Shown: positions 1,940 through 16,170 of the stretch, piece after piece
How positions within the stretch are numbered: the first letter of the stretch is position 1
Layout: each line of letters begins with the position of its first letter
From: a virus
Reading direction: 5' to 3' (one strand)
Length of the DNA: 28,437 nucleotides
Virus record (IMG/VR): IMGVR_UViG_3300031857_001037
Span: 1 to 28,437 of that record
The notes under the pieces: generated by a model
The model's input: only the letters and a program-made list of their open reading frames with translations
Database searches by the model: none
Told to the model about the DNA's origin: nothing
Translations under genes and position numbers: made by a program

Positions 1940-2440
1940 TTAGTTCACGCCTGTGCTTCCAAACCCACCATCCCGCGAGGTTCGCTTCTGCGGTCTCTCG
2001 GGTGTTTCAACGATCACATAATCCTCATTCCTCACAAGTTCACCCTGTGCAATCCGCATGCCATGCGTGATGGTCTGCCGCACAAGGGAATCGTTCTTGA
2101 GAAGGATGAAGCACTCCTCGACATAATCGGAGTCAACTATACCTTCGCAGTTCTGAGTTACAAGCCCATTCTTGAAAGAAAGACCAGAACGAGGATAGAT
2201 TCTAACAGAGTAGCCTTCGGGAATATCGAATATCAATCCTGTAGGAATCAATACTCGGAACTCGGCGGGAATCTCTACTTGATCGACATTGCAATAAAGT
2301 TCTATCGGTTCATTCATCCGCGAGTATGCCTTGACCTTCTCCATGCCCTTGAGGCATGCACAGATGTCAAAGCATGCGGATTGATCCGTGGCAAACTGCG
2401 GAAGCAGTGCCTCAGTATGATTTTTGTAAATCTTCAGCAT
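1940..2440 (-). CDS. dut: dUTPase (deoxyuridine triphosphatase)
   Basis: A 166-residue trimeric-type dUTPase that hydrolyses dUTP to dUMP and pyrophosphate, keeping uracil out of DNA and supplying dUMP for thymidylate. All five motifs are visible: motif 1 SACFDICA (21-28), motif 2 PRSGLS (83-88), motif 3 NCEGIVDSDYVEE (97-109) with the uracil-binding Tyr, motif 4 GMRIAQGEL (127-135) and motif 5 RTSRDGGFGSTG (153-164) near the C-terminus. Motif 3 has DYVEE where DYRGE is usual. Its start overlaps the glycosyltransferase stop by one base (TGATG). Together with the dCMP deaminase at 19076-19576 it gives the phage two routes to dUMP. Confidence 0.95.
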   Translation of the reverse strand: MLKIYKNHTEALLPQFATDQSACFDICACLKGMEKVKAYSRMNEPIELYCNVDQVEIPAEFRVLIPTGLIFDIPEGYSVRIYPRSGLSFKNGLVTQNCEGIVDSDYVEECFILLKNDSLVRQTITHGMRIAQGELVRNEDYVIVETPERPQKRTSRDGGFGSTGVN

Positions 2441-3717
2441 CAGCGGCTCTTTGCCTTGCGATCCTTCTTGCGGTTCAACAGACGCTTAAGGTTCTCCCTG
2501 CGGAGTTCTTCTTCCTTTTTTGTGTCCAATACTGAGTTCATCGACTTCGGGACTTCCTGCTGTGCAGCCTGTGCATCCTTCTGTCTCATTGCCGCAATCA
2601 GGTCTGCTGACTCAATCATCCTCTGCTCATACAACTGAAGGTTCTGCTGCATCCTTGGCTTCTCGGTCTCAGGATAAAATGGATTTTCCATGCACTTCTT
2701 ACCCGCAGCAACTCCCTCATCGAACCTATGAAGATAGAATGCTGTTGCAGCAATTTCGTCATCAACTTGCCACTTGTAGACATCCTCATCGATGAAGAGA
2801 ATATCAAAGTGGGGATATGGCATGTCCTTTGCCATCTTTGCATAAAGATATGCAAGCCTTGGTTGATTAATCAACCGATACATCTTGGCAATCTGATAGA
2901 GTGGTTCAGCACGGATGGGGCGATAGTTCCATGCCATAAGGAACCTTTCCTTGATCTCACCGAATGGCTTGTTCGTGATTGCTGCGATCATGGCGATTCG
3001 ATACAAGGAGTAGAAGACCTCTTCCTCCCATCCGCCCATCTCAACTCGCTTTTGGTATGCCGCAGCAGACTTATCCCATTGCTGAGAATCAAAGTATGAC
3101 TGAGCAAGATAGAACTGATGACGAGTGTTCGTCGGATCTTCCTTCATTGCCTCTTCAAGGATCACGGCATCACGGCTGTACTTTTCAATGGGAGATATGC
3201 CAACATTCCTTGCACCACCCATGGTACGGGCGCAGATGTTGTAGTTGCCTTCTAGTTTCTGAATCCGTGGGTTTTGCTTTTCACAAGCGGCATATTCGTG
3301 CAGTACACCCTTGTACTCCCACTTGCAATCCAACTTGAAGACCTGATTGCGCCACCAGAAGAAGGAACCTCGCTTGATGCGTAGGGCATAACTATCGACT
3401 TCGGTGGTTGGTGGGAGAATGAGTTCTCCCTCAATGTAGTCATCGGCATCGATCACCCATGCATAGTCTGCCTTGCCTTCAGCAGCACGGAAAGCAAGGG
3501 TGCGGTTGTGACCGAAGTTCTTCCACTCATGATCGTGAATCTCACCAGGAATACCCTTCTCCTTGAAGAAGTCGGTGATGATCTGCTTTGTGTTGTCGGT
3601 GGAGCCTGTGTCGCAGATGACCCAGTAATCAATGTACTTGTATACCGAGTTGAGGCATTCGTGTATGATGTGCGACTCGTTCTTCACGATCATGCATAGT
3701 GTAACAGTTGGACGCAT
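2440..3717 (-). CDS. Family 2-like glycosyltransferase with helical repeat tail
   Basis: A 425-residue protein. Residues 1 to about 150 form a GT-A glycosyltransferase domain: start PTVTLCMIVKNE, DTGSTDNT at 36-43 for nucleotide-sugar binding and the metal-binding DADD at 90-93. The region from about 180 to 340 is rich in paired helices with a TPR-like look (for example the FYLAQSYFDSQQWDKSAAAY segment), and the last 40 residues are highly charged. Such proteins occur in bacteria and large phages and transfer sugars to proteins, glycans or, in some phages, DNA. Acceptor is unknown. The start has an AAGGA site 9 bases upstream. It is the first gene of the cassette placed between regA and gp43, which are adjacent in T4. 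Confidence 0.85.
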   Translation of the reverse strand: MRPTVTLCMIVKNESHIIHECLNSVYKYIDYWVICDTGSTDNTKQIITDFFKEKGIPGEIHDHEWKNFGHNRTLAFRAAEGKADYAWVIDADDYIEGELILPPTTEVDSYALRIKRGSFFWWRNQVFKLDCKWEYKGVLHEYAACEKQNPRIQKLEGNYNICARTMGGARNVGISPIEKYSRDAVILEEAMKEDPTNTRHQFYLAQSYFDSQQWDKSAAAYQKRVEMGGWEEEVFYSLYRIAMIAAITNKPFGEIKERFLMAWNYRPIRAEPLYQIAKMYRLINQPRLAYLYAKMAKDMPYPHFDILFIDEDVYKWQVDDEIAATAFYLHRFDEGVAAGKKCMENPFYPETEKPRMQQNLQLYEQRMIESADLIAAMRQKDAQAAQQEVPKSMNSVLDTKKEEELRRENLKRLLNRKKDRKAKSR

Positions 3718-6421: not shown

Positions 6422-6849
6422 TTCTCAGTCTCCTTCTCGTTCAGTGTCAAGAGATACTCTACACCAAAGGTCTCCTCAATCAACTTCTTTCTCATATCAT
6501 TCTCCGAAATGGTTAGTGGAACATAGTTGGTGAACCCAGGCATGTTTTTAGGACAGTTTACCCGAGGATAATCCAACTTTGAATAATGATTCTCATTCAG
6601 GTTCTTTATCTGAGTATGTCCGAAGTCGCCACAGTTACACGCACCGCAGAAGTAAGAATGAGCAAATTTAACACTCGGTTTTCTCTCAGGGCAAGGAGGA
6701 ATGTTCATCTCTTCTAAACCATGGCATGATATGCTTCTCACATCATGCAACTCATCGGATACTTTGTTGTTCTTGATGCCTCTCGACAACAGAGAATCCG
6801 CAACTTGCCATGCACTAGTGAATTTGTTCCTGAGAAAATAATTCTTCAT
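6418..6849 (-). CDS. Cysteine-rich conserved protein between gp46 and gp45
   Basis: A 143-residue protein of unknown function. Cysteines lie at 42, 53, 68, 71, 73 and 99; the CGACNCGDFGHT block (68-79) and the later KLDYPRVNCP and MPGFTNY stretch (91-109) look like a metal-binding (zinc or iron-sulphur) core. The N-terminus is helical with LLSRGIKNN, the C-terminus is a charged helix. It overlaps gp46 by ATGA upstream and the next gene by GTGA downstream, so it is co-translated with replication and recombination genes. I have seen similar proteins in marine T4-like phages but know no assigned role. Confidence 0.75.
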   Translation of the reverse strand: MKNYFLRNKFTSAWQVADSLLSRGIKNNKVSDELHDVRSISCHGLEEMNIPPCPERKPSVKFAHSYFCGACNCGDFGHTQIKNLNENHYSKLDYPRVNCPKNMPGFTNYVPLTISENDMRKKLIEETFGVEYLLTLNEKETEK

Positions 6850-8570
6850 GACATCCTGCTGAAGTTATTCTTCTTCTTGAATGTAAGGACTTCTTGAAAC
6901 TTATCAAGCAACTGATCGCTCTTGTGTGAGATGACGAAGATGTTGCACCTTGCCCCCATGCCCTTGAGCAACTTCATGAATTCATCCATGCCTGTTCCAT
7001 CAAGGCTTGAATCAAAGACCTCGTCAAGGACAAGAAGATTGCAGTTCGTGCTGTTCTTCAGCCGCGCGATCTCACGCCATGCGAGGAGAAGGGAAAGATC
7101 GATACGCATCTTCTCACCCTCGCTGAACGATGCATAGGTGAACTCATCGCGGTGCCTTGACTTGATTGTTTCATCGAAGTTCTCGTCAAGGTTGAACTGC
7201 ACGAAGAAATCCATGCAAGCAAGATAGTGATTTATCAACTTGTTCATGATCGGAAGATAGTGACGAATCACCTTCGTCTTGATTCCACTGTCCTTGAGAA
7301 TGATCTGAGCGGAACCAAGCAACTTCTGCTCATGCAGTTTCTCTGCATGATTTCGCTTTCCTGCCTCTGATCTGTCAACGAGTTCCTCAAGTGCCATCTG
7401 CTCGTCTTCAAGAGACTGCTGAGACTTCTTGATCTTGTCGATGTCAGCAGTCAGCCGTTCGATCATCTTTTCTGCAACGCCTAGTTTCTGTCGATGCTCG
7501 TTGAGTACCAACTGAAACTTGTTGTACTCCTCCTCAATCTTGTCGAGTTTATTGTTGAGGATGAACATGTTTTCATCGGCTATCTTGCAGTCGATGTCGG
7601 CAAGTGCCTTGTTGACTTCCTCGCGCTTCGTCTTCTTTGCTCCGATCTCCTTCTGACGATGCTCCTCAGTCATCTCCCTGCCACATGAAGGGCAAGGCAT
7701 CTCCTTGGTTGTCACATACATGGAGATGTCCATGTCGAGTGAATCTATCTTTCGCTCAAGGCTGCTCTTGATCTTCTTTAGATCGGATATGTTCCCGATC
7801 TTCTTGCGATAGAGATCACGGTTCTTGGTCATCGTTGCAAGGATGTTTCCTCCCTTGACCGACAAGGCATTGAGATTGTTCTTGGTCTCGGTGTTCTTCT
7901 TCAACTCAACATCAAGTTCGTCAAGAGAACTCCTGCTCTTTTCCTCAAGCATGTTGAGATACTTTCTCTGCGTCTCTATCTTGCTGCCAAGAATCTCCAT
8001 CGCGGTCTCGCAGGAACGAATCTCCTCTTTGTTGGTGGAGATGCGGTTCTTCAACACGACATTCATGGACGAGAACACGCCGATGTCTAGAAGAGACTCG
8101 ACAATCGCGCGGCGATCTGCCGCAGGAAGACGCATGAAAGGAACATAGTTGGTAGAACCAAGGATCACCACCTGACAGAATGACTTGAATGACATCTTGA
8201 GGATCTGCTCCTCAAGCATCTTCTGATGATCCTTTGACTTTGAATCCTGATCAAGCATCTCGCCATTCTTGTAGACTTCGAATATCTTCGGATTCAAGCC
8301 ACGACGAACCAGGTACTTGTTTGTGCCGATGGTGAACTCACACTCAACAAGACAATCCTTGCCATTGATGCTGTTCGGCAGTTGTGGAATATTGATGTTG
8401 CGGAATGGCTTGCCGAAAAGGCAGAAGCAGATGGCATCAAGGAAAGTGGTTTTTCCTGCACCATTCTCCCCGCAGATCAGAGTCATCTCGCTTTTATTCA
8501 GCGTGATTTGCGTGAAATAGTTGCCGTAGGAAAGAAAGTTCTTCCAGCGAATCTTCTCAAAGACTATCAT
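6846..8570 (-). CDS. 46: Recombination nuclease ATPase subunit gp46 (Rad50/SbcC-like)
   Basis: A 574-residue SMC-like ATPase. With gp47 it forms the phage counterpart of the Mre11-Rad50/SbcCD complex that resects DNA ends for recombination-dependent replication and degrades host DNA. Walker A GENGAGKT is at 34-41, two long coiled-coil arms span about 170-285 and 305-415, the zinc-hook CPSC at 293-296 joins them, the ABC signature FSEGEK is at 482-487 and Walker B LLVLDEVFD at 512-520 with a D-loop after it. Length matches T4 gp46 (560). A GGAGTGA site precedes the ATG. Unusually, its partner gp47 is more than 6 kb upstream, separated by an adhesin-like block. Confidence 0.96.
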   Translation of the reverse strand: MIVFEKIRWKNFLSYGNYFTQITLNKSEMTLICGENGAGKTTFLDAICFCLFGKPFRNINIPQLPNSINGKDCLVECEFTIGTNKYLVRRGLNPKIFEVYKNGEMLDQDSKSKDHQKMLEEQILKMSFKSFCQVVILGSTNYVPFMRLPAADRRAIVESLLDIGVFSSMNVVLKNRISTNKEEIRSCETAMEILGSKIETQRKYLNMLEEKSRSSLDELDVELKKNTETKNNLNALSVKGGNILATMTKNRDLYRKKIGNISDLKKIKSSLERKIDSLDMDISMYVTTKEMPCPSCGREMTEEHRQKEIGAKKTKREEVNKALADIDCKIADENMFILNNKLDKIEEEYNKFQLVLNEHRQKLGVAEKMIERLTADIDKIKKSQQSLEDEQMALEELVDRSEAGKRNHAEKLHEQKLLGSAQIILKDSGIKTKVIRHYLPIMNKLINHYLACMDFFVQFNLDENFDETIKSRHRDEFTYASFSEGEKMRIDLSLLLAWREIARLKNSTNCNLLVLDEVFDSSLDGTGMDEFMKLLKGMGARCNIFVISHKSDQLLDKFQEVLTFKKKNNFSRMS

Positions 8571-8587
8571 GGATCACTCCGTTGTAT

Positions 8588-9112
8588 TTATACGGAAGCC
8601 TCAAGACCGAGCATCGGATTCTTTTCAACGAACCAAGACGGAGGATTCACATTCTTCCATTTGGCGAATCTTGCTTTTTCACCGAGATAGTATTTGCGAT
8701 ATGCAACAACAGCATCCTCGCACCTGTATTGGTCGGGCATTGCCTGTGCAAACGGCGTGAGTTCATTCGTGGTCGAGGTGTGATGCACGGCAGCATGGGC
8801 AACGAACCATCCTGCCATCGGCTGACAGGAATGGGTCTTGCCGTAACGCTCCGTATACTCAAAGCAAAGAGCAAGGGTATGCTCTGCAAGCCACATGTAG
8901 TTCTTGTGGGACATTCTTGCCCACAAAGTACATGGGTGGTTTGCGAACGATTGCTTATAGAGGTTCACGGGTGCATGGACAATGTGGCTACCGCAAATGC
9001 GATGATTTGTGGAGAGCATCTGACAGCCCTCCACTATCATCTTGACCACATGCTTGTCACACATATCCTTAGCCGCTAGAAAGGGATCGCTGTTGAGTAC
9101 GAAGATGTTCAT
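8588..9112 (-). CDS. Conserved phage protein of unknown function (MNIFVL family)
   Basis: A 174-residue cytosolic protein. The start MNIFVLNSDP, then CDKHVVKMIVEG, HPCTLWAR, an aromatic helix with WLAEHTLALCFEYTERYGK, then LTPFAQAMP and YRKYYLGEKARFAKW are features of a family common in bacteriophages. Conserved His, Asp, Lys and Trp residues suggest an enzyme, perhaps acting on DNA, and I recall relatives being labelled hypothetical or DNA-glycosylase-like; nothing visible proves this. No good ribosome-binding site precedes the ATG; instead a near-perfect sigma70-type promoter ends 6 bases before it. The family-typical N-terminus supports this start. It sits between the adhesin-like block and gp46. 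Confidence 0.75.
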   Translation of the reverse strand: MNIFVLNSDPFLAAKDMCDKHVVKMIVEGCQMLSTNHRICGSHIVHAPVNLYKQSFANHPCTLWARMSHKNYMWLAEHTLALCFEYTERYGKTHSCQPMAGWFVAHAAVHHTSTTNELTPFAQAMPDQYRCEDAVVAYRKYYLGEKARFAKWKNVNPPSWFVEKNPMLGLEASV

Positions 9113-9118
9113 GCAGGA

Positions 9119-9146
9119 ACTATATCCCTGATCATGACTCTGTCAA
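9119..9146 (-). promoter_or_regulatory. Sigma70-like promoter TTGACA-16-TATAGT
   Basis: On the minus strand the -35 box TTGACA (9146-9141) is a perfect match and the -10 box TATAGT (9124-9119) matches five of six, with a 16-base spacer. It fills the 35-base gap after the 1413-residue gene and would restart host-polymerase (early) transcription for the downstream gp46-to-gp43 block. The -10 box ends 6 bases before the ATG at 9112, so the message would begin at or next to the start codon. Confidence 0.6.
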
Positions 9147-9147
9147 G

Positions 9148-12100
9148 TCACTCTGTTTGATATTCTGGTATTCCATAAGATGCAGGAGCCTCAAGCCATA
9201 CACCCCTGCTGTTTGCAGGAATAGGAATCCTATCAGGAAGTGTAGTTTGTGTGGTGCTTGTCTTTGCGAAACGAATCTTTCCTGGAGGAGCAGTCATTCT
9301 CCACAAGCGGCTTCCAGTAACTCCAATGTCTCCACCGCTTATCACCATATTTGTTCCTGCTTCGTAGAGATCGATTCTATCCACAGTTGCACCAACTGTT
9401 GCCGTTGCATTTGTGCAAGGCTTTGCCAAGGTGTTTCCGCTTATCACAGACCAATCAAGAAGACCCTGATTTCCAAGACTGACATCTCCACTTGCATTGA
9501 AGAAGTTTATTCTTCTAGCACCATTGAGACATAGGTGATAAAGTTCCTCGAAATAATATTCTCTCGCATAAGAGTTACCCTCATAGAACTGCGTGAATGG
9601 TGCGTCTCCACTCCAACCACCAAAGGAACCACTGATTCCGCCACACATCCATGGAGAGATTCCATCAATATATGCCTCTGGTCTAGATCGGAGTATACCA
9701 CGAATCCTGCGTAGGTCAGCAATGAATGCCTGATATGCAGAGTTTCCAAAGGTGATTCCACCCTCTGCAATAGGATGCCAACCGAAAGACTTTCCAAATC
9801 TTACATTTACATCTGTGGTTGCACCTGGAGGATATCCATAGGAATTTATCAATCCTCCAAATCCACCACCACCAGAGGCATTGAATCCACCCGACAACTG
9901 CCCGTAGCAGTGAACCTGATGCCCGTATCCAGGTATATGTGCCTGTAGTCTTCTGTGTCCGTTGAGATCGGTGGCAAACTTTGCCTCTTGTCCATTCAAT
10001 GCATACACATCAGATGAATACTTTCTGATGCCAGCAAAGCCTGTTGTCTCGTCTATGCTTCCGCCAATGATCTTTGACTTGAGATCACCATGGCAGAATG
10101 TATAGATCGCGGAGTCCCATGCATAGTATTGATATAGACGATCAAGGACACCCCAAGGTGGCTTGAAGTCATTTCTGTTCGTGACATTGGTGAAGTATGT
10201 GCCAAGTATGGTTTCAGCAGAAGCACCGCAAGCACCATGCCCTTCGCTCTGTAGGATCTGATTGTAGTTGTACACGAACTCTTCAGCAAGAGTCCTATTG
10301 GTTATAGAATTGGTGATTCCATTGAACCTTGTATCCTGTGAGATTGCAACAAGTCTTCTTGCATCGGGAATCTCAAGGTATGAAGTGTTCGGACCACTGG
10401 CAAAGTTGTCTAGTTCTGCCTGATTTCCTGGAGATAGTCCGTTGTAGAATCCTCCAAGCCCAAATGTTCCAAGAGACTCTGAATCATCATTTACCTCGGA
10501 GAAAACATATCCAAGGTTCTTACTCTGCTGTAGGAAGTTCTTGAAGGAATCCTTTGCAATCTGCCTATTGACATATGACCACGGAGTATTGAATTTCAAG
10601 GGATTGGTGTCTGCCTTATCCCATGTTCCACCGTAATCTGTGCTGAGATAGGTGGCACCAGGAATTCCTCCCGTATATGTCGTACCATCAGCAGTCTGCT
10701 TGAAGTAATAGTCGCCTGGACGCTGATTCGATGGTCCATCAAGAAGCCAATATGTCGGCAGGAACACGCGGCGTTCCAATGGAATCTGCTGCACCGTGAA
10801 AGTATATGTGTTCAGAAGATCGCTTGGCAATCCCGCCGTTGATCCTGAAGAAACATAGTTTCTGAAATACATCAATGCAGGATCTACTTGACCACTTGGA
10901 TTGAACCTTGGATTTATCATTGGGACTACAGAGGGTACATCGACTGTGATTGGGAAGTACGCAGTTCCAAACAACTCATAGTTCAATGCTCTGAAGTAGC
11001 CAGTTCTGTTAGGAGGAGCCTCTGCACCTGATGGCTCAAGTTCGTTATAGAGTTGCGTGAAGTGAAGCGAATCAAGTCCTGCGGTGATTCCGCCCTTCAT
11101 GCAAGCATACAGAAGTTCAAACTCGGATGTCCTTGCATTTCCAGTCCAGAAATTCTGCGGAGGAGTTACGGGAGTTCTTCTTCCTGGATATGGGAAATCG
11201 GAAACAACAGTGCCAACTCCATTTGTCTCCATGTTCTGCTCAAGGATATTTCCAAGAGTCTTGTCGAACCATCCAGTCCTGTTGTAGATATTGTAGTATG
11301 AGACTCCGCTGTGGAACTGATCAAGTATGCTGAAGTTCAATGCAAGACAAGTTGGATAGAGGTAGAATAGACGGAATCTTCTATCATTTACCCAAGGAAC
11401 TCCATCACTTGTTCCATTATAGAATGTTCCAGGAACTCTTTTCCATTTGATGTCGCCATTGTCCTGCACAGTTGTGAATGTATTGTACAGGAATGGAAAT
11501 CCACTCATGACAGACTTATTCGTATCTGTCATATCTTCCACGGTGCAGGATGCGTGTATCTCACCCAATGTGCTTGATCCACAGACTCCCATTCCCCATA
11601 TTGAATTGGAATAGGTCAATCCCCATTTCCTTTGACCAAGGAACATATCCTGTGGAGATGTCATCAAATCGGTTGGCTTATCATCATCAAGGCACCAGTG
11701 CCTTGGGTTGGTATCGCCATTGAATCTTCTCTGATCATTTCTTGTTGGATTATAGACTCCAACATCATCCTTGAACATGTACTGAGCGAATCTTTCGGTT
11801 CCAAGCACGACTCCCTTTGCAGGATTAGGACCAGAGGAACCAAATGTATAGTTGTATTGATCTCTAGCCCATCCAACGGGAATGTTCTCAACATAACTTG
11901 CACCCGATTGAGTGATATTTGTCCAAAGAGTGAATCCTGGAGGTTGCCACCTGTGATATGTTCTCTCTATGATTGCCGAGGCATCGATATCAACATGAGC
12001 AAATCCATCCACGGGAGAAAGGAATTTTTCCTTCCAGTGGGCAACCGATGCATCAAGTCTCCATATAAAATACTCTGCATTTCCCGATACCGTTGGATCA

Positions 12101-13389
12101 GCATACAGGGCAAATGGAACTCGCATCTGAATTCCAGTTCCGTATGGAAGATTTCCAAAGTATGCGATGAACTCCATCGTGTTTCCATACTCTGCGGAAA
12201 GTTGATTCAATGAGTTTACGAGTTTCTGTCCATACCCAAATGACAATCCAACGGAATCACTCATGGGTGGCTTGGGAATCAATCCACTGATGTCTTGTGG
12301 ATCACTTGGGAATGTGCTGCCATCAAAAAGCACAAGAGTCTCGGGATTGAAGCACAGCCCCGCTTTCTCCGCACCAGAACCCCACCAACTGCTGTAGGTT
12401 ATTCCGTTCGGGAAAGTAATCCACGGAGATCCTACGAGAACCTGATCCGCCGAGAAGCCACCAGCAGTCCTCCCATAGTCATCATAACTTGGGTATTTCG
12501 TATATGCTCCAGCAGGAAAGCATAATCCCCTATAGAGAGTGTTCATATGTGCATCTGCACTTCCACCAACAATAACGCCAAGATTGGGATCTCTTACAAC
12601 AGTATGATCTCTCAATAGATCACGAAGGGTGGTATTCTCCCGACACAAAAGATACATGTCATAGATGAAAGCCTCGCCAGTATATCGATCACTCAACCAA
12701 GGAAATCTTCTCCAGTTTCCTGCATACACATTCATTGGAGATGTCATGTTTCCGTATGGGCTGTGAAGCAGTTGTCTACAAACTCCATTGTCTATTCCAG
12801 CCGTATATCCCATATACAGTTGTCTTGGCAGAAGAGTATTTCCTGGACTCCAATCGAAGGTGGGGTGATATCCGTAGTAGGCATTTCCACCTTGATACAA
12901 GAAATCCTGACAGTAGATTGCATTCAGATTGTAGTGTATGAACTTGTGTTTTGCCTGTTTTGGGCTTCTGGCGCGCTCACATCTTTTGTATGCAGTTCTA
13001 ACAGCAGCAGCAAAATCCTTTGGATATGTCAGTGGATCAAACCATCCCTCATCCATGTTTCCCGTTGTATAGTTGAAGGAAGCCTCCACGGTTCCTCCAA
13101 GTATCAATGGGTTTACGGCAGACGAAACTCCAAGCAATGCCATGGTTGCTGCCTTGCCTGTGGCTACATCTGCCGCAGACCAACCTGGTTCATACCTCTT
13201 CATGAGATAATCAAATACTATGTCAAACTTCTCTTGAAATGTCCTTGTTGGAGTGGTGGGAGTCGGAATGTCGGGAGTTCTTGTTCCTTGCTCCGACACG
13301 ATGCTTCTTGAGGAATCCACGCTCGACAACCGTGCGTTGATCAACTTAACCTTGTAGTTGTTGTATACTCTTATGTTTCTTATCTTCAT
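9148..13389 (-). CDS. Giant 1413-residue putative virion adhesin or glycan-active protein
   Basis: The largest gene of the window; I recognise no family with certainty. A basic N-terminus is followed by a Pro/Thr-rich linker (about 36-51) and a long chain rich in Gly, Tyr, Trp, Phe and Asn, as in tail fibres and carbohydrate-binding proteins. No signal peptide, membrane segment or collagen-like repeat is seen. Residues about 1220-1300 (WMCGG, then a long insert, then YFEELYHLCLNGARRINFFN) look like late strands and helices of a TIM-barrel glycosidase, with Glu1281/Glu1282 as candidate acids; the last 90 residues look beta-rich. The ATG overlaps the stop of the 148-residue gene (ATGA). Its operon starts with a late-type promoter motif. 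A tail adhesin or polysaccharide depolymerase is my best inference; an enzyme role is unproven. Confidence 0.6.
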   Translation of the reverse strand: MKIRNIRVYNNYKVKLINARLSSVDSSRSIVSEQGTRTPDIPTPTTPTRTFQEKFDIVFDYLMKRYEPGWSAADVATGKAATMALLGVSSAVNPLILGGTVEASFNYTTGNMDEGWFDPLTYPKDFAAAVRTAYKRCERARSPKQAKHKFIHYNLNAIYCQDFLYQGGNAYYGYHPTFDWSPGNTLLPRQLYMGYTAGIDNGVCRQLLHSPYGNMTSPMNVYAGNWRRFPWLSDRYTGEAFIYDMYLLCRENTTLRDLLRDHTVVRDPNLGVIVGGSADAHMNTLYRGLCFPAGAYTKYPSYDDYGRTAGGFSADQVLVGSPWITFPNGITYSSWWGSGAEKAGLCFNPETLVLFDGSTFPSDPQDISGLIPKPPMSDSVGLSFGYGQKLVNSLNQLSAEYGNTMEFIAYFGNLPYGTGIQMRVPFALYADPTVSGNAEYFIWRLDASVAHWKEKFLSPVDGFAHVDIDASAIIERTYHRWQPPGFTLWTNITQSGASYVENIPVGWARDQYNYTFGSSGPNPAKGVVLGTERFAQYMFKDDVGVYNPTRNDQRRFNGDTNPRHWCLDDDKPTDLMTSPQDMFLGQRKWGLTYSNSIWGMGVCGSSTLGEIHASCTVEDMTDTNKSVMSGFPFLYNTFTTVQDNGDIKWKRVPGTFYNGTSDGVPWVNDRRFRLFYLYPTCLALNFSILDQFHSGVSYYNIYNRTGWFDKTLGNILEQNMETNGVGTVVSDFPYPGRRTPVTPPQNFWTGNARTSEFELLYACMKGGITAGLDSLHFTQLYNELEPSGAEAPPNRTGYFRALNYELFGTAYFPITVDVPSVVPMINPRFNPSGQVDPALMYFRNYVSSGSTAGLPSDLLNTYTFTVQQIPLERRVFLPTYWLLDGPSNQRPGDYYFKQTADGTTYTGGIPGATYLSTDYGGTWDKADTNPLKFNTPWSYVNRQIAKDSFKNFLQQSKNLGYVFSEVNDDSESLGTFGLGGFYNGLSPGNQAELDNFASGPNTSYLEIPDARRLVAISQDTRFNGITNSITNRTLAEEFVYNYNQILQSEGHGACGASAETILGTYFTNVTNRNDFKPPWGVLDRLYQYYAWDSAIYTFCHGDLKSKIIGGSIDETTGFAGIRKYSSDVYALNGQEAKFATDLNGHRRLQAHIPGYGHQVHCYGQLSGGFNASGGGGFGGLINSYGYPPGATTDVNVRFGKSFGWHPIAEGGITFGNSAYQAFIADLRRIRGILRSRPEAYIDGISPWMCGGISGSFGGWSGDAPFTQFYEGNSYAREYYFEELYHLCLNGARRINFFNASGDVSLGNQGLLDWSVISGNTLAKPCTNATATVGATVDRIDLYEAGTNMVISGGDIGVTGSRLWRMTAPPGKIRFAKTSTTQTTLPDRIPIPANSRGVWLEAPASYGIPEYQTE

Positions 13390-13832
13390 TTGGTTGCCTC
13401 TGCATCTATCTCGAATTTTCCGCCAAGAAGTTTGGAAACAATCTCTCCATCGGCACTCTCTACAAGTTCAAGATCATAAAAGTATCTACCAGGCTTGAAT
13501 GATGCCGTTGTGTCCGATGTTATCACTATTCTCATATGACCCGTTGAACCACCGAGAAAGAATATACCATCGCTAACAAATCCTGCGGTAGATCCAGGCT
13601 GCGTGATGTATGTCATGGTTGTGCCAGAGGAGTAGAGTTCCGATGTCCTGTACTTCGACTTCTTGATCTTCATTCTTGCAGAAAAGTCTGTGAACTGATA
13701 CTTGGTCGTTCCATTTTCATCGACATATGACTCAAGCAACTCAAGGGGATTGAGTTCGTCATCAAAGACTTGAAATTCAAGTACGAATGTTGATCCTTGC
13801 TCCAAGGCAAGATCGATGTTAAGTGCTGGCAT
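13386..13832 (-). CDS. Putative virion beta-sandwich protein, paralogue B
   Basis: A 148-residue protein that is a diverged tandem copy of the gene just upstream. Shared landmarks are EQGSTFVLEFQV near the N-terminus, a KKSKYRTSE segment, a GHMRIVI strand and GRYFYDLELVES before the C-terminal GGKFEIDAEATK. The pattern of alternating beta strands is like small structural proteins of phage baseplates and fibres that serve as connectors. It overlaps the giant gene by ATGA, so the two are made together. A role as adaptor or chaperone for the giant protein is inference from this coupling. A GAGGT ribosome-binding site precedes its ATG. Confidence 0.65.
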   Translation of the reverse strand: MPALNIDLALEQGSTFVLEFQVFDDELNPLELLESYVDENGTTKYQFTDFSARMKIKKSKYRTSELYSSGTTMTYITQPGSTAGFVSDGIFFLGGSTGHMRIVITSDTTASFKPGRYFYDLELVESADGEIVSKLLGGKFEIDAEATK

Positions 13833-13841
13833 CAGAATACC

Positions 13842-14279
13842 TCACTTCGTGACCTCTTCTTCTATTGACATTCTTCCCGACAATGCCTTGGTGATCTGAT
13901 AGTTTCCTGTGGTTCCCTCTACAACCTCTATGTCATAGAAATACTTGCCGTGCTTTATGCCAGCAGTGGATGCAGGAGACATGGTGAACCGAACATATCC
14001 TGGCTTCGATGCAATCACATAGAATCCATCCGCAGTCCTTCCAAGTTGCTCTTCATCTATCTGCAAGATACCCACGGTTGACATAGAGTATGCAGCATTT
14101 GTTGCCTTGTACTTGGTCTTTCTAAACTTAGTCCTAAAGGAATAGTTTCCAAGTGCATACTGATTGTAATCATTCAACTTGGCAAGTTCCAATGCAGTAC
14201 CATCATCCTTGGTCAACTCAAACTCAAGGATGAAGGTAGAACCCTTCTCAATAGTGAAGTCTTGTTCCTGTAGTGCCAT
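13842..14279 (-). CDS. Putative virion beta-sandwich protein, paralogue A
   Basis: A 145-residue protein matching its downstream neighbour along the whole length: EKGSTFILEFELTKDDG, FRKTKYKATN, GYVRFTM, GKYFYDIEVVEG and SGRMSIEEEVTK. Many marine phages carry structural proteins with this layout (start with a 'QGS/KGSxF' strand, end with a KxGxYxYDIE strand and a TP/VTK tail). No signal peptide or membrane segment. The start overlaps the stop of the 269-residue gene by one base (TAATG) and lies in the same operon. It is probably a virion component; exact position in the particle is unknown. Confidence 0.65.
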   Translation of the reverse strand: MALQEQDFTIEKGSTFILEFELTKDDGTALELAKLNDYNQYALGNYSFRTKFRKTKYKATNAAYSMSTVGILQIDEEQLGRTADGFYVIASKPGYVRFTMSPASTAGIKHGKYFYDIEVVEGTTGNYQITKALSGRMSIEEEVTK

Positions 14280-15088
14280 TATCCACCCTTGGTGATGTCA
14301 CCAACACTCTTGTCCTTGCGCCACATCTGACATGACCAATACTTCGGGGTGTCTCTTGCGATTCCACCCTTATCGCAACCATGACGAGCGCGGAAGTTCT
14401 TTAGCCGACCAGGTTGATCTCGCTTGATTGAAAGACCAGGATCGCCAAAGCGAACTAGTTTGCCATCGGCGCATACGGCGAACTTCTTCTTCTCACCAGG
14501 AGTTCTCCATGGTTTTCCTGATTGACGGTTCTCGCATTCATTCGCTTCCTTTATCTCTCTCAAAATGCCGCCATGATCAATGAAATCGAGCATGGATAGC
14601 CGCTCTTCATCAACAGACTTCCATTTGCCACCCTTGCGCTTGTAGCACTGAGAAGCCCAACCATTTGCATAGGCAGAGGGATAAACATCGAACTTTGCCT
14701 TGGCTTGAGAAACACAATCATCCCACTTGTCGGGGCTAGTTGGCTTGTTCTTTTCCAAGAGAACTTCCAATGACTCTATTAGATTGTCTCTTGGATCGAT
14801 CTCGTATTCTTCGCTGATTCTTCCCTTGCCAAAATTGGATACCATGATGGGATCACCCTTTCTCTCTGGATTTGGATCATGCTTTCTCTTGGTGCGGACA
14901 GCAGCAGCCCTCTCTCTCTTGGAGAGTTGAGCGCGCTTTTGATTGGACATGCACTTGGGCTTTGGCTCTCCAGGTTCCCTTGCACAAGGACCGACAACCT
15001 CACCCTTGGTGTTGATACGCTTCCAACCACCCTTGGGGTGGCTAGGGCTGAACCATTTCCGTAGATCCTCTTGTATGCGTCTGCCCAT
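14279..15088 (-). CDS. Three-domain fusion of DUF5872-like and other orphan marine-phage domains
   Basis: A 269-residue, strongly basic protein. Residues 1-80 resemble the DUF5872 family (LRKWFS, VGPCAREPGEPKPKC, then KRERAAAVRTKRKHDPNPERKG). Residues 118-155 carry the KFDVYPSAYANGWASQCYKRKGGKW module seen in phages and giant viruses. Residues about 195-256 carry KKFAVCADGKLVRFGDP and FRARHGCDKGG...YWSCQMW, another module known in marine phages. In other phages these usually appear as separate small proteins. Functions are unknown; paired Cys and basic residues hint at DNA or metal binding. A GGAGGA site and a late-type promoter motif precede the ATG; it is first in the adhesin-like operon. 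Confidence 0.75.
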   Translation of the reverse strand: MGRRIQEDLRKWFSPSHPKGGWKRINTKGEVVGPCAREPGEPKPKCMSNQKRAQLSKRERAAAVRTKRKHDPNPERKGDPIMVSNFGKGRISEEYEIDPRDNLIESLEVLLEKNKPTSPDKWDDCVSQAKAKFDVYPSAYANGWASQCYKRKGGKWKSVDEERLSMLDFIDHGGILREIKEANECENRQSGKPWRTPGEKKKFAVCADGKLVRFGDPGLSIKRDQPGRLKNFRARHGCDKGGIARDTPKYWSCQMWRKDKSVGDITKGG

Positions 15089-15101: not shown

Positions 15102-15114
15102 CCTAATATTTAGG
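15102..15114 (-). promoter_or_regulatory. Late-promoter-like motif CCTAAATATTAGG
   Basis: The 29-base gap between gp47 and the adhesin-like operon holds CTAAATATT on the minus strand, near the T4 late -10 element TATAAATA that gp55 recognises. The 13 bases are also a perfect inverted repeat (CCTAA-TAT-TTAGG on the plus strand). A start of transcription about 7 bases downstream would lie just before the GGAGGA ribosome-binding site at 15092-15097. The same CCTAAATAT core occurs at 24394-24386. Confidence 0.5.
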
Positions 15115-15117
15115 AAA

Positions 15118-16170
15118 CTAGAGAGACAAACTTTCAGTATAGATTTCCCGCATCATATTCTTCAGATCGCTTCCACCATCGATCTTCAGTTCATCAATGT
15201 AGCCGTCTATGAGGTCTATGGTGTTCTTGGAAAGTTCCTTCTCGGAGACATAGGCATCGGCGGAATCCTCAACCTCCTCGGCACTCTCAATGATCTGTAG
15301 GTCATATATGCCAGCATCAAAGAGGCGGTCACAGAACATGTCAAACTTTGGCTGATTCTTCTTGGATGTCACAACAAGACGGACAAAGCAGTTCTTGTAC
15401 TTTGAGAAGTTGAAGTTTCCATGACCACTTTCGTCAAGGGATGCATCATAGGAGATTCTGCGATAGAGTTTCAAGGGGTTCTCAATGAACTCAAGGCAAC
15501 CATCATCTGTGTTCAGTACATGGAATCCCCTCGTCTCATCCACCTCAGAGAAGAACATCTGATATGGGTTTCCAAGGTAGTTCACATTTCCGCTCTGCTG
15601 CTTGCAGTGGAAGTGACCAGAATAGACCTTGGGGAACTTGGATAGTATGGCAGGGTCAAGACCGCCCTCATGACGAACTCCACGGACAACCTCATAACCA
15701 TTCAATTCAAAGTGACCAAAGACAGCATCTGCATTGCTACCCTTGAGATACTCAGCCACCTCAAGGGCATTCTCCTTGCTTATCCAAGGAACAAATCCGC
15801 AGATCATTCCATCGATCAGTATGTCCTGTGGCTTCTCATAGACATGAAACGAGTCACCGAAAATCTCCACGACCGAGTTGACCTCATTGGTGTTCTTCCA
15901 ATAGCAGTCATGGTTTCCAATCACGCAATGCACATCGATGTCATTCTGAACGAAGAAATCCGTGAACCTCTTACGCACATTTCTCAAGGTGTTGAAGTTG
16001 ATGTACTTCCTTCGGTCAAGAACATCCCCCATGTGGATGACCGTCTTGATATTGTTCTTGATGAGATATGGAAAGAACTGATCCTCAAAGAAGTTCAGAT
16101 ATGCCTCAAGGAATATCGGAGAATCGTTCTTGAAACCGAAGTGCGTGTCCGTTACGATTGCAATCTTCAT
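15118..16170 (-). CDS. 47: Recombination nuclease subunit gp47 (Mre11/SbcD-like)
   Basis: A 350-residue metallophosphoesterase nuclease, partner of gp46 in end resection. All phosphoesterase motifs are present: DTHFG (8-12), GDVLDR (48-53), GNHD (85-88), FGHFE (151-155) and SGHFH (184-188), giving the residues that bind two manganese ions. After residue 230 comes the capping and gp46-binding region. Length matches T4 gp47 (339). The ATG overlaps the gp55 stop (ATGA). Confidence 0.96.
   Translation of the reverse strand: MKIAIVTDTHFGFKNDSPIFLEAYLNFFEDQFFPYLIKNNIKTVIHMGDVLDRRKYINFNTLRNVRKRFTDFFVQNDIDVHCVIGNHDCYWKNTNEVNSVVEIFGDSFHVYEKPQDILIDGMICGFVPWISKENALEVAEYLKGSNADAVFGHFELNGYEVVRGVRHEGGLDPAILSKFPKVYSGHFHCKQQSGNVNYLGNPYQMFFSEVDETRGFHVLNTDDGCLEFIENPLKLYRRISYDASLDESGHGNFNFSKYKNCFVRLVVTSKKNQPKFDMFCDRLFDAGIYDLQIIESAEEVEDSADAYVSEKELSKNTIDLIDGYIDELKIDGGSDLKNMMREIYTESLSL

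Follow-up and report, generated by a model that had tools for sequence, protein, structure and literature searches.

What are four coupled genes, one of them coding for a protein of 1,413 residues, doing between the two nuclease-subunit genes of a T4-like phage, and does the interval serve as a slot for exchangeable cargo? The window that raises this question comprises the 28,437 bases of an IMG/VR record from a T4-like phage, in which PHROG matches place homologues of gp18, gp20, gp23, gp47, gp46, gp45, gp44 and gp55 in T4-like order, and which also encodes gp22 and uvsW, with all genes on the minus strand. By its gp47-gp46 core the phage is a T4-like myovirus, and its gp47 is 38-39% identical to those of isolate phages. 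The block itself is tightly packed: fusion and parA overlap by 1 bp, parA and parB are separated by a 9-bp gap, and parB and GIANT overlap by 4 bp (Table 1). ORF positions and junctions bear out the first-pass annotation of this DNA in its coordinates and its count of four coupled genes parting gp47 from gp46, as does the relatedness of parA and parB (hhalign 99.9%), the two paralogues that it had named; a fifth gene, PyrEx, lies between the block and gp46 and had gone uncounted. Elsewhere in the window (2440-3717, 55-906) a glycosyltransferase gene (phrog_13126, E 5e-24), a DNA methyltransferase gene (phrog_67) and a dUTPase-like gene lie near each other, neighbours that make DNA modification in this phage possible.

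Table 1. Features in and around the gp47-gp46 interval, in window coordinates.
Feature	Position	Strand	Description	Match or remark
gp47	15118..16170	-	SbcD-like nuclease subunit, upstream border gene	phrog_100 E 8e-103
CTAAATA	15107..15113	-	late-promoter-like motif of the block	19 nt before fusion ATG
fusion	14279..15088	-	269 aa, basic protein	phrog_727 2e-20, phrog_3477 3e-19
parA	13842..14279	-	145 aa, small adaptor-type, left end of exchanged cassette	phrog_1084 6e-13
parB	13386..13832	-	148 aa, parA paralogue	phrog_1084 4e-16
GIANT	9148..13389	-	1413 aa, predicted modular adhesin (anchor + A + B)	
GIANT residues 1-50	13240..13389	-	clade-wide N-terminal peptide and P/T-rich linker	alignments
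GIANT module A	11023..13239	-	residues 51-789	without B in L106, L122, L113
GIANT module B	9151..11001	-	residues about 797-1413	present or absent among relatives
TTGACA-N16-TATAGT	9119..9146	-	early-type promoter, predicted to restart the PyrEx-gp46 side	11/12 sigma70-type match
PyrEx	8588..9112	-	174 aa, pyrimidine-dimer-glycosylase-like	PF03013 1e-9, phrog_624 5e-60
TATAAATA	8585..8592	-	late-type motif directly before gp46, overlapping PyrEx end	retained in most relatives
gp46	6846..8570	-	SbcC-like, downstream gp47 partner	phrog_77 E 4e-164

That gp47 and gp46 normally lie close together, as had been supposed, is confirmed outside the clade of the window, where the gap between them measures 0-1.5 kb (more than 100 contigs, plus the isolate genomes examined) and where the two genes are adjacent or one gene apart in the isolates S-PM2, S-CAM1, HTVC008M and Melnitz. 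Among the matches listed, the block is absent from contigs outside the clade picked by gp47 or gp46, and clade members (gp47 at least 67% identical) all carry it. We based the tally of its presence on uvsW as bait, which avoids selection by the block itself: the block was found in 17/17 contigs that reach past gp47, the other 18 contigs ending too early. The same virus recurs in different samples (e.g. L002/L003/L005, L001/L004, L015/L119 and L113/L105), so that independent lineages are fewer than contigs, and the trees described below used 14 distinct lineages. The four-gene block thus belongs to the clade as a constant element and is not an occasional insertion, the very outcome that the first-pass annotation had named as speaking against its reading. 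Across the clade the frame runs gp47-fusion-parA-parB-GIANT-PyrEx-gp46, opened by a conserved late-type motif and closed by a conserved sigma70-type promoter; the gene set at this place is constant in 17/17, and what varies is the alleles and the modules of GIANT. A foreign origin of the block, considered from its G+C content, was not supported, the G+C being the same as that of its neighbours.

How the variable part changes can be followed in contig 3300010354_004134 (L125/L194), which is among the closest relatives of the window, with protein identities of 99% for uvsW, 96% for gp45 and 99% for gp44. Fusion and PyrEx are each 91% identical between the two phages; the values are 38% for parA, 49% for parB and 61% for the N-terminus of GIANT. 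At the DNA level, contiguous homology of 85-89% outside the cassette breaks off at about 14233, near parA codon 16, and is back at 9114, beside the start codon of PyrEx, which marks the right border. Between these points just one short piece aligns, and the 1,413-aa GIANT of the window is replaced in the contig by a stub of 50 aa; fusion goes with the flanks and lies outside the exchanged unit. The same borders therefore hold different parA-parB-GIANT alleles, the swapped cargo that the first-pass annotation had proposed to look for. Phylogeny agrees: L125 and L110 join the window in the core tree (99/99), a grouping rejected by the parA+parB tree (lnL 92 lower, p-AU 6e-52), which unites the stub carriers L118, L125 and L110 (100/99.6). 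The L118 branch is long, and the conclusion of exchange is independent of where L118 groups, because a sharp difference is already there between the window and L125. Alignments and trees show that parA-parB-GIANT changed hands together and with constant borders, a horizontal exchange between phages with near-identical flanks of the kind expected of anchor-based receptor-binding proteins (RBPs).

A second layer of variation lies within GIANT, whose homologues at the same place range from 50 to 2272 aa. Every one opens with the same type of ~45-aa peptide (MKI.NIR..NNYK.KL.N..L.GV...GTR), followed by a P/T-rich linker. After the linker comes nothing in the stubs of four contigs (50 aa), module A in L106, L122 and L113 (767-789 aa), A and B in the window, L107, L104, L097 and L132 (1386-1428 aa), A and a beta-helix in L121 (1640 aa), A, B and B' in L102 (2124 aa), and A, B and a beta-helix in L002 and L098 (2227-2272 aa). 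The beta-helix, which in the homologues of L121 and L002 matches PF13229 (4e-14) and the tail-spike family phrog_7458 (3e-7), comes after A in one of these phages and after B in the other, with 60% identity between the two copies, and so moves as a module. A constant N-terminus to which unrelated or additional C-terminal domains are joined is the arrangement that would be expected of an anchor-based modular RBP. In both stub lineages the stub ends at the linker, which we infer to fit an empty socket better than a random truncation. The term cargo slot therefore holds for parA-parB-GIANT, and for GIANT after its N-terminal ~50 residues; it does not hold for the four-gene frame itself, which is fixed.

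GIANT has no significant match in Pfam, PHROGs or isolate phages, and relatives of it were not found in bacterial genomes. Profile searches of the PDB gave no match for modules A and B, which are not detectably homologous to each other, and AlphaFold2 models built with 6 and 3 homologues reached pLDDT values of 28 for A and 29 for B, too low for use. Pfam hits to RRM, ICEA and DUF5872 fell below their cut-offs and were dismissed. Two features of individual homologues may be recorded here: the GIANT segment after B in L102 (12357-14354) repeats part of B in diverged form (25-31% identity), and in L005 both GIANT and gp47 are frameshifted (12463 and 7780) compared with the near-identical L002, which likely reflects sequencing, assembly or strain errors.

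The two paralogues that travel with GIANT belong by profile match to phrog_1084 and phrog_3304, families of tail-fibre-associated small proteins, the match to phrog_3304 (L-shaped tail fibre assembly) being weak for parA (2e-3) and 1e-4 for parB. Relatives of ParA/ParB occur in baseplate and fibre regions of HTVC008M, MED4-213, P-HM2, Mosig and ACP17, and a relative stands directly upstream of a fibre gene in L142, L143, Mosig and P-HM2; GIANT itself is a predicted fibre or adhesin. In L142 and L143 the parB relative (E 2e-10 and 2e-8) is followed by a collagen-like fibre gene with which its codons overlap, and the fibre genes after it in one or other of these contigs are collagen-like or Gly-rich; in L142 and in Streptomyces phage Beuffert a parB relative also adjoins capsid genes. 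PDB 26dk chain M ('Structural protein'), a virion chain whose matched stretch has the same sequence as ORF087 of Pseudomonas phage KPP25, is matched marginally by parA (E 0.002) and parB (E 0.0035), two matches that are not independent because the proteins are paralogues with related profiles. In L143, a distant T4-like relative, a parB-like gene and then collagen-like and glycine-rich fibre genes (8001-9884) lie between a glycosyltransferase gene and dut, so that adhesin-type cassettes appear to enter this DNA-metabolism region elsewhere too. In L205, from the sister group, a parB-like gene directly follows a w3738 homologue and precedes unclassified ORFs of fibre-like appearance (10587-12961).

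Fusion, the first gene of the block, is probably virion-associated. Its N-terminal half is of the cyanophage T4-GC_119 type, which in cyanophages is located between gp16 and gp17, and a homologue is annotated as structural in S-B43; its C-terminal part, weakly DUF5754-like, recurs in small phage proteins and in L015 also matches a minor-head/DNA-pilot profile. The L015 homologue (IMGVR_UViG_3300044621_000408, 8287-10035) also has an intein-like insertion, placed between FDVYP and SAYANGWA, which starts with C, ends with GN|S and matches PF14890 below its cut-off (E 8e-4). Further upstream, L098 has ~780 bases (2384-3162) between gp55 and gp47, genes that overlap or touch in other relatives; this is possibly an inserted element.

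Predicted expression signals stand at both ends of the block. The late-promoter-like motif that it had been said to open with is present as CTAAATA, a form that has been put forward as late promoter in Aeh1 (PMC1524935), and sits within a TCTAGTTTCCTAAATA-like stretch kept in all contigs examined except L118; a conserved TATAAATA or CTAAATA before the first gene is what would mark a T4-type late unit. TAAATA is not more frequent in the window than chance would have it (7 observed vs 5.8 expected), but its placement departs from chance (binomial p about 1e-9), with 6/7 copies found on the coding strand at 15-46 nt upstream of a gene start. Motifs of a similar late type stand before two non-structural genes as well, gp46 and that for the glycosyltransferase. 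At the other end, the claim of an early-type promoter restarting the gp46 side finds support in TTGACA-N16-TATAGT, the best of 20 promoter hits in 14 kb, a total at chance level. A promoter is predicted at the same place in 13/13 relatives tested, scoring 9-11 of 12, at -34/-35 from the PyrEx start codon and with a spacing of 16 or 17, though the surrounding DNA differs; simple shuffles put p at no more than 0.03 for each. The last gene of the stub phages has its stop codon within the -35 box, and in four sister-group contigs, where PyrEx overlaps gp47, the promoter is absent. Since no terminator-like site was seen at the downstream border, the slot is 'insulated' only in the sense of a restart. 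Together with the motif before it, this promoter seems to give gp46 two starts, an early one via PyrEx and a late one at TATAAATA; middle-type genes with both an early and a late start have been described in S-PM2 (PMC2984593).

Taken together, these features make it probable, in our judgement, that the four genes form an operon, exchangeable in its distal part, for an accessory adhesin of the virion. The earlier suggestion of adhesin-like late-type genes inside a DNA-metabolism module accords with the motif, the swapped modular GIANT and the fibre-linked relatives of ParA/ParB, from which we infer that the products are located in the virion and act in host recognition. ParA and ParB would be made late in infection and form a docking piece, to which the N-terminal peptide of GIANT would bind; modules A, B and the tail-spike-like beta-helix would then be displayed on the particle, where they may bind or cut host or environmental polysaccharide, and the downstream promoter would give early expression of the PyrEx-gp46 repair genes whatever the cargo upstream. 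Against this reading count the lack of any known-family match for modules A and B, the marginal PDB matches of parA and parB, the late-type motifs before non-structural genes and the place of fusion outside the exchanged unit. GIANT appears to be accessory because stub phages without A and B exist and because G001, the largest related genome (156 kb), has separate genes elsewhere for tail-collar, long tail and collagen-type fibres; that GIANT is the sole host-recognition protein is unlikely. More tentatively, we suggest a dedicated adhesin docking locus split from the other tail genes, in which the adaptor pair and the 50-residue anchor with its P/T linker would make up an exchangeable and maybe empty socket, A and B would represent new families of adhesins or enzymes at the phage surface, and the nuclease genes would be kept running by the two conserved promoters under any inserted cargo.

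Where on the particle such an adhesin would sit bears on its role. As a sub-case of the adhesin operon, the products could form a dispensable decoration of the head or neck (Hoc- or whisker-like) that sticks to surfaces or polysaccharide, and not a host-choosing tail fibre. The dispensable distal part in stub phages, the separate tail-collar and long tail-fibre genes of G001, the capsid genes beside a parB relative in L142 and Beuffert, and the closeness of the block to gp20-gp23 (in G001 it lies far from baseplate genes) all speak for this placement; in T4-like isolates, however, the family most often neighbours baseplate and tail-fibre genes, and the beta-helix resembles tail spikes, so that we regard it as possible but rather unlikely. 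The beta-helix of GIANT homologues weighs likewise against a role of GIANT within the infected bacterial cell, as an enzyme or effector of takeover, superinfection exclusion or lysis partnered by parA and parB. Such a role would suit modules A and B, which have no recognisable adhesin domain, and the position among DNA-metabolism genes, but relatives of parA and parB occur in virions and beside fibre genes, the block is preceded by a late-type motif, and a fixed N-terminal peptide with a swapped C-terminus is the usual plan of RBPs (PMC6872550); we consider it improbable. Least likely is that these are ordinary stable core genes of the clade whose differences reflect fast divergence with no exchange of cargo. 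The four genes in place in 17/17 determinable close relatives and their unremarkable G+C would be expected of such genes, whereas the gain and loss of GIANT modules would not, and the sharp homology breaks at both borders between phages otherwise 85-89% identical, with the rejection of the core grouping by the parA+parB tree (p-AU 6e-52), strongly disfavour it.

If the adhesin-operon reading is true, the clade offers a natural series of one surface-protein slot (empty anchor, one, two and three modules) in close phages and with known borders, so that the contribution of each GIANT module would be directly comparable; it would also bring to light two large modules, A and B, that have no known relative, and provide a case of structural cargo that is housed within a pair of DNA-repair genes and equipped with a restart promoter. 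The closest parallel is with anchor-based RBPs with exchangeable C-terminal domains, such as the tail fibres of T7 and K1F and the second RBPs of KP32viruses, among which a truncated KpV767 protein of 69 aa keeps the conserved 29 aa and has been proposed as a docking site for new cargo (PMC6872550). GIANT shares with them a short conserved N-terminus, variable distal modules (among them a candidate depolymerase-like one), horizontal exchange and truncated forms of the attachment peptide. It differs in the peptide itself, in that a T4gp10-like adapter was not found (Pfam, PHROG), in the paired ParA/ParB swapped along with it, in modules A and B, which match no known family, and in its place between gp47 and gp46 of T4-like phages. 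ParA and ParB, for their part, resemble the phrog_1084 and phrog_3304 proteins (KPP25 ORF087) in sequence family and small size, the family often standing directly upstream of fibre-type genes; unlike these, they are tandem paralogues followed by a non-collagen giant and lie outside the baseplate region. T4-like phages also have hyperplastic regions, such as cyanophage g15-g18, where variable accessory genes occupy a fixed place (PMC2984593). There too variation lies between core genes, and T4-GC_119, the homologue of the fusion N-terminus, is located in that region. The present block, in contrast, stands between two recombination-nuclease subunits with a fixed gene frame, its gene set does not differ between close relatives, and it varies by allele exchange and by module gain and loss within genes. 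Open-licence papers yielded no description of cargo between gp47 and gp46. Thus a conserved anchor with an exchanged C-terminus and retained truncated forms is known already from Klebsiella phages (PMC6872550), and what is new here is the place, the partner proteins, the modules and the unusually complete series from an empty anchor to three modules.
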